DNA of 64,000 nucleotides, taken from Marinifilum sp. D714 (GTDB taxonomy: Bacteria > Bacteroidota > Bacteroidia > Bacteroidales > Marinifilaceae). Below are positions 23,842 through 63,853 of this stretch, piece after piece. A program made the position numbers and the translations under genes. Location of the stretch: assembly GCF_030851345.1 (NCBI RefSeq), contig NZ_JALPNU010000002.1, forward strand, positions 124,001-188,000. Direction: 5' to 3'. How positions within the stretch are numbered: the first letter of the stretch is position 1; the number at the start of each line of letters is the position of its first letter. The notes under the pieces were generated by a model. That model made no database searches and was not told where the DNA came from. It saw only the letters and a program-made list of their open reading frames with translations.

Positions 23842-26286
23842 ATGTCAGAAACAATAAAGGAAAACATGGAAGCAAAAGATGATAATTTATCATACGAAGA
23901 TTTTACTTCCGAAGTTCTTGAAGATTATCGCATAGCAAATATAAGCCGTCAGTTAAGCATTTTAGGTCGTAAGGAAGTTTTAACCGGGAAGGCCAAATTT
24001 GGAATTTTTGGTGACGGAAAAGAGATTGCTCAAATTGCAATGGCAAAATCATTTAAAAAAGGTGATTGGCGATCTGGATATTATAGAGATCAAACTTTTA
24101 TGTTGGCAGCGGGTATGCTTACACCAGAGGAGTTTTTTGCACAGTTGTTTGGAGAAACCCAGTTGGATAAAAACCCTGCAAATGGTGGGCGTTTAATGAA
24201 TAACCATTATGCCTCGAGAAGTTTGAATGAAGATGGTTCATGGAAAAATCTTACAGAACAAAAAAACTCATCAGCAGATATTTCGCCAACCGCAGGGCAA
24301 ATGCCTCGATTACTAGGCTTGGCTTATGCTTCAAAATTATTTAGAGAGAATAAAGAGCTGCATCAGTTTACCAATTTCTCACTTAAAGGAAATGAAGTTG
24401 CTTTTGGTACAATTGGAGATTCAAGTACATCCGAAGGACATTTTTGGGAAACCATCAATGCTGCAGGAGTTTTAAAAGTGCCAATGGCAATGAGTGTATG
24501 GGATGATGGTTGGGGAATTTCAGTTCCCAATAAATATCAGACTACCAAGCAAAACATATCAGAAGCATTAAAAGGATTTGAGCAAGATGAGAATGGAGAT
24601 GGATATTTAATATACAAAGCTAAGGGTTGGGATTACCCTGCTTTGTGTAAGATGTATGCTGAAGGAGTAGAGCTTTGTCGTCGTGATCATGTGCCAGTAT
24701 TGTTTCACGTTTCAGAAATGACGCAGCCTTTAGGACATTCTACATCCGGTTCACACGAAAGATACAAATCGAAGGAACGTTTGGAGTGGGAGGCTGATTT
24801 TGATCCAATTAAAAAGATGAGGGAATGGATTCTTTCAATGGAATTGATTGGAAGTGAAAAGTTGCATGAGATTGAAAAAGAGGCTATAGATATAGTAAAG
24901 AAAGCCCGTCAAACAGCATGGAAAAGCTTTACAGAACCTATCAAGAAAGAGCGTGATGAATTGATTACGCTTGTAGAAAATGCAGGATGTAATTGTAAGA
25001 AGACGGATCGAATTAATAGCATTACTTCGGGATTAAAAAAAGTAATTCATCCTGTTCGTAAGGACAATGTTAGTGCTGCAAAGAAAATCCTTCGACACAT
25101 CTGTTCAACTTGTGAAAGTTTTAAGCCGCTAAAATCTCAATTACAGGTTTGGTTGAAGAATACCATTGATGAAAATCATGAAAGATACAGCAGTCATTTG
25201 TATAGTGAAACAGAGTTAAAAGTTAGCAATATAAAACCGATTGCTCCTGTTTATAGGGAAAATTCTAAAATGGTAAATGGGAGAGAAGTGTTGCGTGATA
25301 ATTTTGATAAATTATTTACGAAATATCCTTTACTACTAACATTTGGAGAGGATACCGGTTTTATTGGAGGTGTGAACCAAAGTTTAGAAGGAATGCAGGA
25401 GAAGTTTGGTGAACTTCGAGTAACTGATACAGGAATTCGTGAAGCTACCATTCTTGGACAAGGAATTGGACTTGCTTTGCGAGGATTAAGACCAATTGCT
25501 GAAATTCAGTATTTCGATTATTTGCTCTATGCCCTGCAAACTATGAGTGATGATTTGGCAACCATGCAATACAGAACCAAAGGTGGACAGAAGTCTCCAG
25601 TTATCATTCGTACTAGAGGTCATAGGCTGGAAGGAATTTGGCATTCAGGTTCTCCTTTGAGTATGGTGATTAACTCAATTCGCGGCGTTCATGTTTGCGT
25701 ACCTAGAAATATGACTGTTGCAGCAGGATTGTATAACTCACTTTTAGAATCTGATGAACCAGCTTTGGTGATTGAACCTTTAAACGGATACCGACTAAAA
25801 GAAAAAATGCCAGAGAATTTAGGTGAATTTAAAACTCCACTTGGAGTTCCTGAGATTTTAAATGAAGGTAGTGATATTACTTTAGTAACATATGGCTCTT
25901 GTGTTAGAATTGCAGAAGACGCAGTGAAGCAGTTAAAAGATTTTGATATTTCGGTAGAATTGATCGATGTTCAAACACTATTGCCTTTTGATGTGAATCA
26001 AAGAATTTTAGAATCGGTTAAGAAAACCAATCGAATTGTATTCTTCGATGAGGATGTGCCAGGTGGAGCAACTGCATTTATGATGCAAAAAGTACTGGAA
26101 GACCAGAAAGCATATTTCTATTTGGATTCTGAGCCAAGAACCATTACGGCAAAAGATCATCGACCTGCTTACGGAACCGATGGAGATTACTTCTCGAATC
26201 CTAATGCGGAAGATGTTTTTGAAGTAATTTATGATATTGTGAGAGAATCGAATCCGAATAAATTTCCTTCAATTTATACAGAATAG
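23842..26286 (+). CDS. Fused alpha-beta 2-oxoacid dehydrogenase E1 (thiamine-dependent)
   Basis: The 814-residue protein joins the alpha and beta chains of a two-chain E1. The alpha half (about 30-345) holds the TPP motif GDSSTSEGHFWETINAAG and the WDDGWGISVPN segment, and DISPTAGQMPRLLGLAYA. The beta half (about 475-814) begins near NGREVLRDNFDKLF and shows GEDTGFIGGVN and RIVFFDEDVPGGATAFM. The linker (about 345-470) carries C383, C385, C421 and C424. It decarboxylates pyruvate or a branched-chain 2-oxoacid and passes the acyl group to E2. An E2 lies at 41.7 kb; no E3 is in the window. The substrate is not decided. Confidence 0.9.
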   Translation: MSETIKENMEAKDDNLSYEDFTSEVLEDYRIANISRQLSILGRKEVLTGKAKFGIFGDGKEIAQIAMAKSFKKGDWRSGYYRDQTFMLAAGMLTPEEFFAQLFGETQLDKNPANGGRLMNNHYASRSLNEDGSWKNLTEQKNSSADISPTAGQMPRLLGLAYASKLFRENKELHQFTNFSLKGNEVAFGTIGDSSTSEGHFWETINAAGVLKVPMAMSVWDDGWGISVPNKYQTTKQNISEALKGFEQDENGDGYLIYKAKGWDYPALCKMYAEGVELCRRDHVPVLFHVSEMTQPLGHSTSGSHERYKSKERLEWEADFDPIKKMREWILSMELIGSEKLHEIEKEAIDIVKKARQTAWKSFTEPIKKERDELITLVENAGCNCKKTDRINSITSGLKKVIHPVRKDNVSAAKKILRHICSTCESFKPLKSQLQVWLKNTIDENHERYSSHLYSETELKVSNIKPIAPVYRENSKMVNGREVLRDNFDKLFTKYPLLLTFGEDTGFIGGVNQSLEGMQEKFGELRVTDTGIREATILGQGIGLALRGLRPIAEIQYFDYLLYALQTMSDDLATMQYRTKGGQKSPVIIRTRGHRLEGIWHSGSPLSMVINSIRGVHVCVPRNMTVAAGLYNSLLESDEPALVIEPLNGYRLKEKMPENLGEFKTPLGVPEILNEGSDITLVTYGSCVRIAEDAVKQLKDFDISVELIDVQTLLPFDVNQRILESVKKTNRIVFFDEDVPGGATAFMMQKVLEDQKAYFYLDSEPRTITAKDHRPAYGTDGDYFSNPNAEDVFEVIYDIVRESNPNKFPSIYTE

Positions 26287-26306: not shown

Positions 26307-26342
26307 TAAATCCACAAATAGAAATATTTGTGGATTTTTTTT
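26307..26342 (+). terminator. Intrinsic terminator of the E1 gene
   Basis: AAATCCACAAATA pairs with TATTTGTGGATTT around GAAA, followed by a T run, 20 bp after the stop. Confidence 0.9.
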
Positions 26343-26352
26343 ACGTTTCGTT

Positions 26353-26380
26353 TCACCCCTTTTCGGAATTAAACTGTCTT
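26353..26380 (+). promoter_or_regulatory. Unit 1 promoter: TCACCC-N16-TGTCTT
   Basis: TCACCC (26353-26358) and TGTCTT (26375-26380) are 16 bp apart. The same arrangement recurs at two further points (26589 and 26864), each ahead of a strong terminator. The pattern looks like an ECF-sigma promoter (AAC/ACC-type -35, GTC-type -10). Confidence 0.5.
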
Positions 26381-26387
26381 ATATATG

Positions 26388-26539
26388 ATTGAGGGAGCTT
26401 CTCAGTGGAGTTTTCTCAATTGGCTTTTTAGTGAGTAATAGTTGGATGCAATGTGGTAATTCTTCCAATCGATACAAACAATTAAGCAAAATATACTTGT
26501 AAAAGCAATCACTTTAAAAGAAAGTGATTGCTTTTTTTT
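26388..26539 (+). ncRNA. Predicted small RNA, tandem unit 1
   Basis: From the predicted start after TGTCTT to the terminator is about 150 nt. No ORF longer than 18 codons is found. Its middle (CTTTTTAGTGAGTAATAGTT, then GGATGCAATGTGG and CAATCGATA) resembles unit 3 at the same relative position. It ends with an intrinsic terminator AAAAGCAATCACTTT/AAAGTGATTGCTTTT at 26501-26539. Short peptides (17 and 18 codons, ATG at 26385 and 26423) cannot be excluded. Start and strand are inferred. Confidence 0.55.
26501..26539 (+). terminator. Terminator of unit 1
   Basis: AAAAGCAATCACTTT pairs with AAAGTGATTGCTTTT with a loop of about 4-5 nt and a T run. Confidence 0.9.
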
Positions 26540-26588
26540 GGTTTATACACTTATTTAAAAATATAAATTTAAAAAAATGTAATTCTTG

Positions 26589-26616
26589 TCACCCCTTTTA
26601 ATTACTTCCTTGTTTT
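26589..26616 (+). promoter_or_regulatory. Unit 2 promoter: TCACCC-N16-TGTTTT
   Basis: TCACCC (26589-26594) and TGTTTT (26611-26616) are 16 bp apart. TTCTTGTCA (26583-26591) and TGACAAGAA (26628-26636) form a perfect 9-bp inverted repeat around the promoter, which could be an operator or an RNA fold. Confidence 0.45.
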
Positions 26617-26623
26617 AGTATTG

Positions 26624-26778
26624 TTCATGACAAGAAATAGGGGTCTTGTTGCGAATAACTTTTTAGTTCGTATGTGCCTTAAGTAAAGTAATGGTAATGA
26701 TATGATGGGCGCAATTCTAAAGGGCTATATTATATAGCATTTAAACGATCATTCTTAGGGGGAATGATCGTTTTTTTA
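26624..26778 (+). ncRNA. Predicted small RNA, tandem unit 2
   Basis: About 155 nt from the predicted start to the terminator. It shares the AACTTTTTAGTTCGT core (about 26656-26670) with units 1 and 3 but is otherwise more diverged. An ATG at 26627 opens a 19-codon ORF and a 10-codon ORF lies near its end, with no support from outside the sequence. It ends at the hairpin AAACGATCATTC/GAATGATCGTTT (26743-26773) and a T run. Confidence 0.5.
26743..26778 (+). terminator. Terminator of unit 2
   Basis: AAACGATCATTC pairs exactly with GATCGTTT-type arm GAATGATCGTTT around TTAGGGG, then seven T. Confidence 0.92.
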
Positions 26779-26863
26779 TTTTAAGGAATAAGCTGGAAAA
26801 TACCTGAAATTTCATCGCAAACGTTAAAGTTTGTTAAAAAAGTAAAGAAATACAGACGAAAAG

Positions 26864-26891
26864 TAACCCATTTTGATGTTTTAATCGTCTA
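26864..26891 (+). promoter_or_regulatory. Unit 3 promoter: TAACCC-N16-CGTCTA
   Basis: TAACCC (26864-26869) and CGTCTA (26886-26891) are 16 bp apart, the best ECF-sigma match of the three. AGACGA (26854-26859) and TCGTCT (26885-26890) form an inverted repeat around it. Confidence 0.5.
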
Positions 26892-26897
26892 TATAAA

Positions 26898-27022
26898 TGA
26901 AAACTTTTAGTTAGTGTTGATTTGATTCATTGTGGTTAGTGGTTAATTGTCGATAAGATAATTTGCAAATCAACATAGGATTTTTGCCCGGCATTGTAGC
27001 CCTTTACATGCCGGGTTTTCTT
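26898..27022 (+). ncRNA. Predicted small RNA, tandem unit 3
   Basis: About 125 nt from the predicted start to the terminator. The 5' part (AAACTTTTAGTTAGT, TTGATTCATTGTGG and TTGTCGATA) aligns with unit 1. The only ATG (26897) opens a 5-codon ORF. It ends with the hairpin CCCGGCAT/ATGCCGGG (26987-27015) followed by TTTTCTTTT, so the strand is plus. It converges on the NhaC gene at 27023. Confidence 0.5.
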
Positions 27023-27023
27023 T
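26987..27023 (+). terminator. Terminator of unit 3
   Basis: CCCGGCAT pairs with ATGCCGGG around a 13-nt loop, followed by TTTTCTTTT on the plus strand. The minus strand has no T tract after it, so it does not serve the NhaC gene. Confidence 0.85.
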
Positions 27024-28948
27024 TACCTCTTTCCAATGAATTTTACAATCAAGAATAGGGTGATAAATCCTAAAGGAATTAGTATCCATGAACTAATTCC
27101 ATACGCAGCAGGCAATAAGCCAAAAATAATTGCTATAGATCCAACAGTTAAAGCGTAAGGTAGTTGAGTTCTAACGTGCTCAATATGATTACAAGAACTT
27201 GCTAAAGAGCTTAAAATAGTAGTATCTGATATTGGTGAGCAGTGGTCACCTAGAACGGAACCAGCTAATATCGCAGAAACTGTAATGTAAAAAATATTCA
27301 TACTTTCAACATCCCCCATACCAGCCGAGTGGCAAAGAGCCCAGGAGGCAGGAAGAATCAAAGGATAAAGAATAGCCATCGTCCCCCATGATGAACCTGT
27401 TGAAAAAGCAATTAAGGCAGATAAAATAAAAGTAAATGTTGGCAAGAATTCAGGTGGAACTTCTGTTGCAATTAAGATTTTCGATATAAAATCTGCTGTA
27501 TGCAAATCTTTGGTAATGTCAGCTAATGCCCATGCCAATATCAAAATAAGAATTGCCGTTAACATGGTTTTAAAGCCTTTTACCAAAGCATCAATTGTTT
27601 TCTTTAAACTTAGTATTCTTTGCCCAATGCTTAATGATGCAGCTATTAAAACGGCTGAAATTGATGACCAAAGCAGAGCTAAATAAGAATCAGATGCTCC
27701 AATGATATGTGATAGTTTTGTTCCAAATGAGATCGTAGAATCATCCCAAATATCCCCATTCCAGCCCGTATAAATCAGTCCTGCAAAAGTTCCGAATATT
27801 ACTACCATTACTGGAATTCCAGCATTGTACCATCTTGTAGGAATTTCAGGCGATATCTCAATGTTTTCGATTTCATCGTTGGAATGCTCATTGATTTCTG
27901 AATATTTTGCTTCGGATTTAGCCCTTTGCTCAGCTTTAAACATTGGTCCGAAATCTTTCTTCATTATAACAATCATTAAAATGAAAAATAGAGTGAAGAA
28001 AGGGTAAAATCGTGTTGGCAGTGAATTTAAAAATATGCTGTATGGACTTTCATCAATATTGATTTGTACAGTTGCCGATTGAATGTAGCTCAATTCTATT
28101 CCAATCCATGTTGTAATCATTGCGATTGAAGCCACGGGGGCAGCGGTTGAATCTACAATGTAGGCTAATTTTTCTCTCGATACTTTTAATTTATCCGTTA
28201 CTGGTCGCATGGTATTTCCAACTACCAAAGTATTGGCATAATCATCAAAAAATATTAGAACACCCAAAATCCAAGTTACAAATTGTCCGGATCGAGAACT
28301 GTTTGCAAAACGTGAAAGTTTATTCACAACACCTTGCATGCCACCATTTTGAGTAATCAGGTTTACCATAGCTCCAATTAGCATAGAAAAAACAATAATT
28401 GAGATATGGCCTGTATCAGATAACGATTGGATGATATAAGTATCTGAAATTGCAAAAATTGCTTTAAAACAGGCAGAAAAAAATGAAATATCCTGATATC
28501 CGAAAATAATGAGTGTCCCGGAAAATAGCCCTACAAAAAGAGCTGAAAAAACTTCTTTAAACACCAATGCCATTAATATGGCTATAAGTGGAGGCAATAT
28601 CGACATCCATAAGGGAATGGCTTTGTATTTTACCTTCTGTTCTTGTTGTGAAATGCTTAATTGAACAACATCATTACCTTTAAATACAAATGGAATTTTT
28701 ATCTGATCATGTTCCGGTTGAATCCAGAATTCGCTTTCATTTATTTTAATCAATACTGAATCTTTTTTCAGATGGCTTTCATTTTTTAAATGAAGAGTAA
28801 TCTCTGAAGGAATATCAGCAATAATTATTTTTGGTAGCTCAATTGTAAAATCTTCGTGAATAGTTTTCTTTTCTTTATCAGAAGCAACACTTTCAAATGA
28901 TAACAATAGCAGTAATAAAAGAATTGAGAGGGTAAAATTTTTAATCAT
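27023..28948 (-). CDS. NhaC-family Na+/H+ antiporter with an N-terminal extracytoplasmic domain
   Basis: The 641-residue protein begins with a signal-like helix (about 3-22), then a beta-type domain of about 80 residues (NESHLKKDSVLIKI, then SQQEQKVKYKAIPLW) that lies outside the cell, then the NhaC membrane core of about 12 helices with GVLIFFDDYANTLVVGNTMRP, STGSSWGTMAILYPLILPA and GSVLGDHCSPISDTTILSS. Ordinary NhaC proteins lack the front domain, which might bind a ligand or regulate exchange. It is one of two NhaC proteins here. The substrate is unknown beyond Na+/H+ by family. Confidence 0.88.
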   Translation of the reverse strand: MIKNFTLSILLLLLLLSFESVASDKEKKTIHEDFTIELPKIIIADIPSEITLHLKNESHLKKDSVLIKINESEFWIQPEHDQIKIPFVFKGNDVVQLSISQQEQKVKYKAIPLWMSILPPLIAILMALVFKEVFSALFVGLFSGTLIIFGYQDISFFSACFKAIFAISDTYIIQSLSDTGHISIIVFSMLIGAMVNLITQNGGMQGVVNKLSRFANSSRSGQFVTWILGVLIFFDDYANTLVVGNTMRPVTDKLKVSREKLAYIVDSTAAPVASIAMITTWIGIELSYIQSATVQINIDESPYSIFLNSLPTRFYPFFTLFFILMIVIMKKDFGPMFKAEQRAKSEAKYSEINEHSNDEIENIEISPEIPTRWYNAGIPVMVVIFGTFAGLIYTGWNGDIWDDSTISFGTKLSHIIGASDSYLALLWSSISAVLIAASLSIGQRILSLKKTIDALVKGFKTMLTAILILILAWALADITKDLHTADFISKILIATEVPPEFLPTFTFILSALIAFSTGSSWGTMAILYPLILPASWALCHSAGMGDVESMNIFYITVSAILAGSVLGDHCSPISDTTILSSLASSCNHIEHVRTQLPYALTVGSIAIIFGLLPAAYGISSWILIPLGFITLFLIVKFIGKR

Positions 28949-63765: not shown

Positions 63766-63783
63766 TCTTTTAATTCTATTATT

Positions 63784-63853
63784 CTCCTACTCGTATGGCT
63801 TTTCGGATGCGCCCCGTTTATGGTTTCTGGACTCCATTTATCAAGTAGGCGCG
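63784..63853 (-). promoter_or_regulatory. Possible structured 5' leader of the DUF5684-like gene
   Basis: Read on the minus strand, GCGCC (63852-63848) can pair with GGCGC (63813-63809) or, through the overlapping CCTACT (63849-63844), with AGTAGG (63791-63786). AGTAGGAG is a purine-rich segment 16 bp before the start, so the two pairings are mutually exclusive. This fits a switch-like leader, but no family is recognised. The rest of the region to the right edge is unassigned, except the start of a hairpin at the edge (GCCGGTTC...GAACC). Confidence 0.3.

Follow-up and report, generated by a model that had tools for sequence, protein, structure and literature searches.

The locus considered here raises the question of what is encoded between a dehydrogenase gene (23842-26286) and a convergent nhaC-type gene (27023-28948) in Marinifilum sp. 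D714, an interval in which no open reading frame of at least 60 amino acids is listed. Positions are those of the window, by which we mean the whole 64,000-nucleotide stretch that was analysed. The flanking dehydrogenase is 91-98% identical to Marinifilum records. An initial annotation described three tandem promoter-RNA-terminator units in this interval, and three such units are found at 26353-27024, each with its own promoter and its own terminator (Table 1). All three box pairs lie where they had been placed (26353-26380, 26589-26616, and 26864-26891), with a gap of exactly 16 bp between the hexamers in each; the boxes read TCACCC..TGTCTT in unit 1, TCACCC..TGTTTT in unit 2, and TAACCC..CGTCTA in unit 3. 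The strong terminators described behind each unit were likewise recovered, those of units 1 and 2 by scan (26501-26535 and 26743-26773) and that of unit 3 by direct reading at 26987-27024, where CCCGGCAT..ATGCCGGG followed by TTTTCTTTT overlaps the end of the nhaC-type gene.

Table 1. Features of the array and its borders, in window positions
Feature	Position	Strand	Basis
Intrinsic terminator 3' of the upstream dehydrogenase gene	26308..26342	+	read from sequence, terminator scan
Unit 1 promoter, class II, (TT)TCACCC-N16-TGTCTT(A)	26353..26380	+	matrix II 25.6 vs class I 11.5
Unit 1 RNA (predicted 5' end ~7 nt past the -10 box): 5' hairpin, TTTTTAGT, GUGGUA-loop hairpin, terminator 26501-26535	26387..26539	+	model R2, 49.3 bits
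Unit 2 promoter, class I, TTGTCACCC-N16-TGTTTTAGTA	26586..26620	+	resembles the ECF/fecR intergenic promoter of G000:C11
Unit 2 RNA (predicted 5' end, within a few nt): 5' hairpin 26621-26658 with loop AAUAGGGG at 26636-26643, terminator 26743-26773	26621..26777	+	model R2, 33.7 bits
Unit 2 stretch of 23 nt complementary to susC codons 8-15 (L237:5228-5250)	26633..26655	+	18 Watson-Crick and 5 G-U pairs
Unit 3 promoter, third variant, GTAACCC-N16-CGTCTATA	26864..26891	+	matrix scores, alignment
Unit 3 RNA (predicted 5' end): TTTTAGTTAG, long stem GTGTTGATTTG/CAAATCAACA, internal hairpin CATTGTGGTTAGTG, terminator 26987-27024	26898..27024	+	model R1, 103.8 bits

Words shared by the three units had been offered as a sign of common descent. 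The words are present, but TCGATA did not hold up as a family word: since relatives such as Mflex_u1 do not retain it, its occurrence in unit 1 is taken to be chance. Similarity above that of shuffled sequence proved weak within the window itself, where 199 of 500 dinucleotide shuffles scored as high as units 1 and 2, 90 of 500 as high as units 2 and 3, and 7 of 500 as high as units 1 and 3. The homology of the units therefore rests on their relatives. A class A covariance model, R2, trained without any Marinifilum sequence, recovers window unit 1 at 49.3 bits and window unit 2 at 33.7 bits, identifying these two as paralogous sequences in one genome. The kinship of unit 3 is weaker. It scores 103.8 bits with R1, the unit-3 model that counts it among its training rows, and R1 detects class A copies, the class of unit 1, at no more than 25.6 bits; window unit 1 itself scores 17.6 bits (E 0.59).

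Labilibaculum copies contain the full structural plan, which consists of hairpin H1 with an AUAGGGG loop, TTTTTAGTTAGTG, hairpin H2 with an apical GUGGUA loop, hairpin H3 (AAGGGCUCC...GGAGU), and the terminator. Marinifilum unit 2 retains the H1 loop and Marinifilum unit 1 retains H2, while unit 3 represents a shorter class, characterized by a long stem and the CAUUGUGGUUAGUG hairpin; unit 2 of G004 apparently lacks the 5' hairpin. In an alignment of 10 sequences (A4), 93.3% of cells are paired under a structure derived from one of the ten, and this falls to 40-53% when the partners are slid. Eight pairs are altered on both sides versus 3.8 in shuffles, with 2 of 500 shuffles as high. Folding z-scores of units 1, 2, and 3 are -5.9, -5.0, and -4.2 with their terminators and -2.9, -2.2, and -2.0 without them. 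These comparisons show the three units to be members of one predicted RNA family. The earlier proposal of a small-RNA family that arose by duplication under ECF-type promoters is thus supported by the boxes, the two-sided changes, the lack of a well-kept open reading frame, and the model cross-matches, less firmly so for unit 3.

No Rfam family matched the three units at the gathering threshold, and a search of the relatives' copies at E<=10 gave no credible family. Weak matches to MicX, STnc320, DapZ, Yfr19, and mir-303 on or near the L046 and L049 copies were far below gathering scores and were rejected. Elsewhere in the window, a DUF805 RNA motif (RF03081) was found above its gathering score at 63780-63842 (-) with 71.1 bits, and a partial FMN riboswitch match lies at the end of a G014 stretch (L047:1-51, -).

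Each unit of the window also has an ATG near its -10 box, and the units had alternatively been explained as genes for leaderless micro-peptides. One frame, the 19 codons of unit 2, does persist with little change in five Marinifilum, at a length of 21 codons in M. breve. Across relatives, however, no open reading frame is well kept and the start codons come and go: of eight unit 1 sequences, counting that of the window, three have no such ATG and the remainder have frames of 3-17 codons, while the ATG is missing in three of nine unit 2 and three of six unit 3 sequences, counting ATG only (two unit 3 orthologs have GTG or TTG at that place). With frame lengths varying from 3 to 21 codons and the RNA structure and loops conserved instead, we regard micro-peptide genes as the least probable explanation of all those considered.

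RNA homologs are found by R2 in 18 of 56 genomes of the family and by R1 in 17 of 56, each count including this genome. Among 295 genomes sampled from the order under strict filters, R1 matched only this genome and none of the 294 others. BLASTN with 26346-27022 gave matches in 11 of 38 genomes, again including this one; the one in G006 spans 30 bp, and no unit is seen there. Arrays of 2-4 units, mostly in the same place, occur in M. fragile, M. flexuosum, M. sp. D737, M. caeruleilacunae, M. breve, and M. sp. N1E240, as well as in a Marinifilum MAG (split on two contigs), in Labilibaculum species, and in allied genera. No unit was present in the 1.45 kb examined at the locus in three Ancylomarina genomes (L060, L061, L063). 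A GNAT-type acetyltransferase-like gene, so named from its translation, lies between the units and unit 3 in L043 (3144-3626), L049 (3079-3562, in two frames), L053, L056, and L057 and is missing from the window; relatives' loci with this gene were noted as L043, L049, L053, and L055-L057.

This preference for one place between two conserved genes, together with the overlap of the unit 3 terminator and the nhaC-type gene, is what might be expected of a conserved intergenic element that has no function as a transcript, such as a termination or attenuation region for the flanking genes. Several features of the relatives argue against it. About 6.5 kb separate units 1 and 2 in D737 and about 4.6 kb in M. 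breve, copies occur elsewhere in the genomes (G012:C35, G055:C38, G057:C28, G062:C7, G014:C8), and 36 copies could be scored with promoter boxes of their own. We consider such an element very improbable. By translation, the gap in D737 (L038:3222-9688) contains a subtilisin-like protein and small lipoprotein-like reading frames; the M. breve locus (L062) stops inside unit 2.

The promoters were the second subject of comparison. The initial annotation pointed to TNACCC-N16-YGTYTW as a pattern that might recur upstream of other genes. It occurs 10 times in the 4,769,055-base genome, 3 of these being the window units, versus 28 times when read backwards. By itself the loose pattern thus shows no genome-wide enrichment, and weight falls on clustering and conservation; partner genes did emerge for specific classes of the promoter, as described below. 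In ungapped alignments, the -35 hexamers are 94-100% identical and the -10 hexamers 86-96%, compared with 53-82% for the spacers. In most unit 3 orthologs from outside Marinifilum the boxes are N15 apart, and ten of the relatives' copies that were folded had no TNACC box by the pattern used.

We divided 36 RNA promoters into classes using matrices trained on protein-gene promoters only. The class I matrix was built from the ECF/fecR intergenic promoters of orthologs of an ECF gene on contig C11 of this genome (G000), and the class II matrix from promoters of DsbD-like, small Cys/His-rich plus TonB, aminotransferase-V, and thioredoxin-like genes and of one gene without a family match. By score, all nine unit 2 copies and all five first Labilibaculum-type copies fall in class I. 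All eight Marinifilum unit 1 copies score as class II, among which the N1E240 copy is ambiguous (16.8 vs 15.1), and three later Labilibaculum-type copies also score as class II. Unit 3 and its orthologs are closer to class II, with low scores in Marinifilum (-0.8 to 8.2), and their promoters seem to form a third variant (CGTCTWTA or TGTCTWTA). Sites of at least 18 bits number 22 in 918,878 bp (81 sources, both strands), a cut-off below which unit 3 promoters and some unit-1-class copies fall (13.9, 16.8). Of the 22, 21 precede these RNAs (one of them, the L059 RNA, was left unlabelled in the scan as its core word differs and is the LMAG11 copy of L045), and the remaining one is L089:11234. Sites resembling sigma-70 promoters were no commoner than in shuffles (11 vs 11.0). 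The sequences show that the putative RNAs have conserved promoters of at least two classes.

Since the promoters split into classes, a single ECF factor for all three units, as first suggested, is unlikely. Such a model would treat the differences between boxes as neutral drift, and boxes of the TNACC-N15/16-YGTYT kind are indeed common to all units with small changes, while the N1E240 unit 1 scores nearly alike in both classes (15.1 and 16.8). Against it stand the consistent assignment of units 2 and first Labilibaculum-type copies to one class and of unit 1 copies to the other, and the fact that each class matches a separate set of protein genes; we give it a small probability.

The class I promoter leads to an ECF-linked operon. 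The genome contains 37 sigma-70 region 2 matches, covered by 30 loci and 8 further stretches, one of them a repeat. One of these, an ECF gene at G000:C11:47772-48323 (TIGR02985, above cut-off), is followed by genes for FecR, SusC, SusD, and a Peptidase_Mx1 protein. The promoter between its ECF gene and fecR is TTTGTCACCCTTTTTTTGAGAGAAACTGTTATAGTA. Scanned near all 37 matches, the class I matrix exceeded 20 only at this C11 locus, where it reached 38.4 with the C11 sequence and those of G001-G003 excluded from training. A 24-letter pattern allowing up to three mismatches has three places in the genome. The C11 promoter fits it exactly, unit 2 has one mismatch, and a class II promoter has three, while the reversed control gives no site. 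Within one mismatch in 4.77 Mb, unit 2 and the fecR-susC-susD promoter are thus the only two sites. Among 22 loci compared, all 20 ECF orthologs of at least 54% identity have a TCACC[C/T]-TGTTA/T promoter upstream of fecR, and the two at 42-43% identity have a different form.

Of the 18 genomes that bear the RNA, 16 have an ECF ortholog of at least 68% identity, and none of the rest of the 56 does. The exceptions among the 18 are G014, in whose copy the TCACCC box is missing, and G058, a MAG in 1180 contigs. Four genomes of genus g17 have orthologs of 54-57% identity and no RNA match, and the co-occurrence may simply follow the clade. Other features of these loci were noted in passing. galK- and galT-like genes, by translation, adjoin the C11 operon. 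The fecR-susC gap has TACTAACCAAATCA before susC in 19 of 20 genomes (not G040) and a GC-rich hairpin behind fecR, even in RNA-free genomes, which is possibly an attenuator or an element of the untranslated region. The next-best class I-like promoter of the genome (19.2 bits; G000:C61:67182, +; L171:2614) precedes a 129-codon gene without an NCBIfam match. Further ECF-FecR gaps (L173, L180, L182, and L171 in this genome; L299 and L302) have TNACCC-like -35 boxes and vary in the -10 word and the spacing, which would fit a separate promoter variant for each ECF factor.

Class II has a different set of partners. The unit 1 promoter, TTTCACCC-N16-TGTCTTA, is common to DsbD-like, metal/TonB-type, and aminotransferase-V genes. 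Exact TCACCC-N16-TGTCTTA occurs at 12 sites in six relatives, preceding unit 1 (2), DsbD-like genes (4), genes for a small Cys/His-rich protein (4), and aminotransferase genes (2). In this genome the Cys/His-rich gene is followed by genes for a TonB-dependent receptor and a CopZ/MerP-like protein, and the composition of the set suggests, though only by inference, a response to thiol or metal stress. Looser patterns were not enriched, either with 3 mismatches in this genome (43 sites vs 38 reversed) or with 1 mismatch in the six relatives (30 vs 24 reversed), so only the 12 exact sites and the recurring genes carry weight; the 18 one-mismatch sites consist of 4 before class II partner genes, 3 at unit 2, and 11 that are other or unclear. 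No ECF locus had a class II promoter above 14.1, no ECF-linked operon was found with a class II or unit 3 promoter, and the search around the 37 sigma-70 region 2 matches yielded no sigma factor for unit 1 or unit 3. The unit 3 promoter has no other site in this genome (reversed control 5) and one further 2-mismatch site in G001.

Unit 2 shares more with the C11 operon than its promoter. When the three units were compared by RNAduplex with 35 fecR/susC starts, chosen by a rough rule, the pair of unit 2 and C11 susC stood out at -59.5, the next for unit 2 being -43.8; mean pairing of the units over the 35 starts exceeded that of shuffles by only 1.0-1.8 sd. The predicted duplex contains an uninterrupted 23-bp run lying 21-43 nt past the A of the susC ATG. 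Its energy is -63.9 versus -32.7 for 400 shuffles preserving base composition only (sd 5.2, minimum -50.2; z ~ -6), and in a separate panel of 42 tests, units 1, 2, and 3 against 14 gene starts, it was the sole test beyond z -3, at -6.85. The shuffles used for the 35 starts and for the 42 tests were likewise matched in base composition only. In a scan of 403 kb of partly overlapping DNA from this genome, no other run of unit 2 on either strand, its own locus aside, was as long, the next being 19. A run of 22 bp (16 Watson-Crick) also exists for unit 1 at an unrelated site in the window, so that place and energy weigh more than run length.

The 23-bp run is present in 3 of the 13 genomes tested, G000 and its close relatives G001 and G003, and G002 has 15 bp; the susC pairing spot holds the top two windows of a 3.4-3.5 kb operon stretch in each of G001, G002, and G003. 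In G009, susC offers 17 bp with 6 G-U pairs at an unexceptional -35.5, and better windows lie elsewhere. No run of at least 15 was found at the susC start in the other eight (G004, G011, G012, G015, G056, G060, G061, and G062, with the G060 RNA used in place of that of G061), and in these the RNA still has the class I promoter. The pairing of unit 2 with susC is therefore a prediction that is good for Marinifilum and weak in one sister genus, without support from compensating changes.

This distribution also bears on whether the tandem ECF-controlled small RNAs act instead on other mRNAs or on a protein through the invariant GUGGU(A/U) loop, the susC pairing being an accident of one lineage. 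The GUGGU loop and TTTTAGT are among the best-kept parts of classes A and C, the susC pairing is missing in 8 of 13 genomes, and unit 3 has a weaker match of its own to the start of the class II aminotransferase gene, where the whole unit gives -41.1 (z -2.94, one of the 42 tests) and the loop alone -22.2. This u3-aminotransferase pairing is a lead. The loop concerned, CATTGTGGTTAGTGGT, is invariant in unit 3 and could base-pair with TAACCCTAACCCAATGAG across the start codon of this aminotransferase-V gene (L242, G000:C83). Near-complementary targets of the unit 1 core in eight genomes included none common beyond G001 and G002, and its long targets were the RNAs themselves and scattered 3-mismatch sites, two of them common to G001 and G002. 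On the other side, the unit 2-susC match lies far outside the shuffles and in the very operon that the promoter indicates, and Marinifilum unit 2 has no GUGGUA loop of this form. We consider this alternative unlikely, though it is the strongest of those to the preferred reading.

The comparisons show a shared promoter, a conserved predicted RNA, and complementarity, all at the sequence level. The reading that we prefer, with a probability of roughly 0.6, is that the units are tandem sibling small RNAs, that an ECF-FecR system activates both a SusCD importer and unit 2, which limits susC, and that the siblings of unit 2 stand under other ECF promoters. A signal through SusC and FecR would free the C11 ECF factor, which would then transcribe the importer operon and unit 2 alike. 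The unit 2 RNA, if stable, would initiate pairing through its AAUAGGGG loop with CUCC in susC, and the paired RNA would lower SusC translation, so that the circuit would act as negative feedback or as an incoherent feed-forward loop. The RNAs of units 1 and 3 would be relatives under other ECF-type promoters, unit 1 belonging to the apparent thiol/metal-stress set. Since the siblings have different ECF-type promoters, different envelope signals would feed one RNA family. A more tentative extension, to which we give slightly less than even odds, is that the array is a hub in which each sibling is wired to a different ECF factor and at least one closes a feedback loop by pairing with the susC mRNA of an ECF-FecR operon with which it has its promoter in common.

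Bacteroidota can hold many ECF-FecR-SusCD systems, and little is established about the promoters that each ECF factor reads or about small RNAs as members of these regulons. At this locus, sequence alone links promoter, sigma factor, small RNA, and target, which makes sharp tests possible, and siblings of one RNA family are kept under different promoter classes across several genera. In sigma-E regulation, an envelope sigma factor drives MicA and RybB, RNAs that hold down outer-membrane proteins; the hub, if true, would be a Bacteroidota counterpart of this sigma-E/MicA logic inside a nutrient importer. A literature search of a limited collection found no paper on this RNA family and, by titles and the starts of abstracts, none on a Marinifilum small RNA.

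Neither small RNAs driven by ECF factors nor tandem siblings are new as such. In the text available from PMC4211561, OmrA/B, PrrF, AbcR, Qrr, and the csRNAs are likewise sets of several related small RNAs with their own promoters. The present array differs from these and from the sigma-E RNAs in phylum and sequence, in having siblings under different sigma-promoter classes, and in that one RNA shares its promoter with its predicted target operon. In Flavobacterium psychrophilum, another of the Bacteroidota, CGT-type -10 boxes comparable to those seen here are assigned to ECF factors in SM6, a set of predicted ECF promoters; the conserved small RNA Rfp18 of that species affects proteases and, in the part of that source available, is given neither a link to an ECF promoter nor a tandem array (PMC9723704). 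The row of ECF, FecR, SusC, and SusD genes with a promoter between ECF and fecR matches FecIRA-like ECF-FecR-SusC signalling (PMC9249621; PMC12596196), and within the available text of these two papers the word sRNA has 0 occurrences and no small RNA appears in the regulon.

The closest comparison is with FopS and GibS, which, according to the portions available, are also paralogous intergenic small RNAs of Bacteroidota (PMC7366714; PMC11697453). The FopS RNAs of Bacteroides are described as binding near the start codon of susC-type mRNAs and blocking translation (PMC11697453), and unit 2 is predicted to pair in such a start region in Marinifilum, a pairing absent in the eight genomes named above. 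GibS is reported to be driven by PM2, a non-canonical -10/-30 promoter (PMC7366714), and PM2-like promoters have been linked to ECF factors (PMC12596196; both from partial text). FopS, as far as that text goes, has a single-stranded 5' seed followed by a terminator and canonical sigma-ABfr promoters (PMC11697453), whereas in the array hairpins precede the terminator in place of an unstructured seed, and the promoters are of ECF type and differ between siblings. Because of these differences in structure and promoter, the array may act in a manner like FopS without being classed with it. What looks new is a tandem family that keeps different ECF-type promoters over several genera, one of them shared with the operon to which its RNA is antisense.
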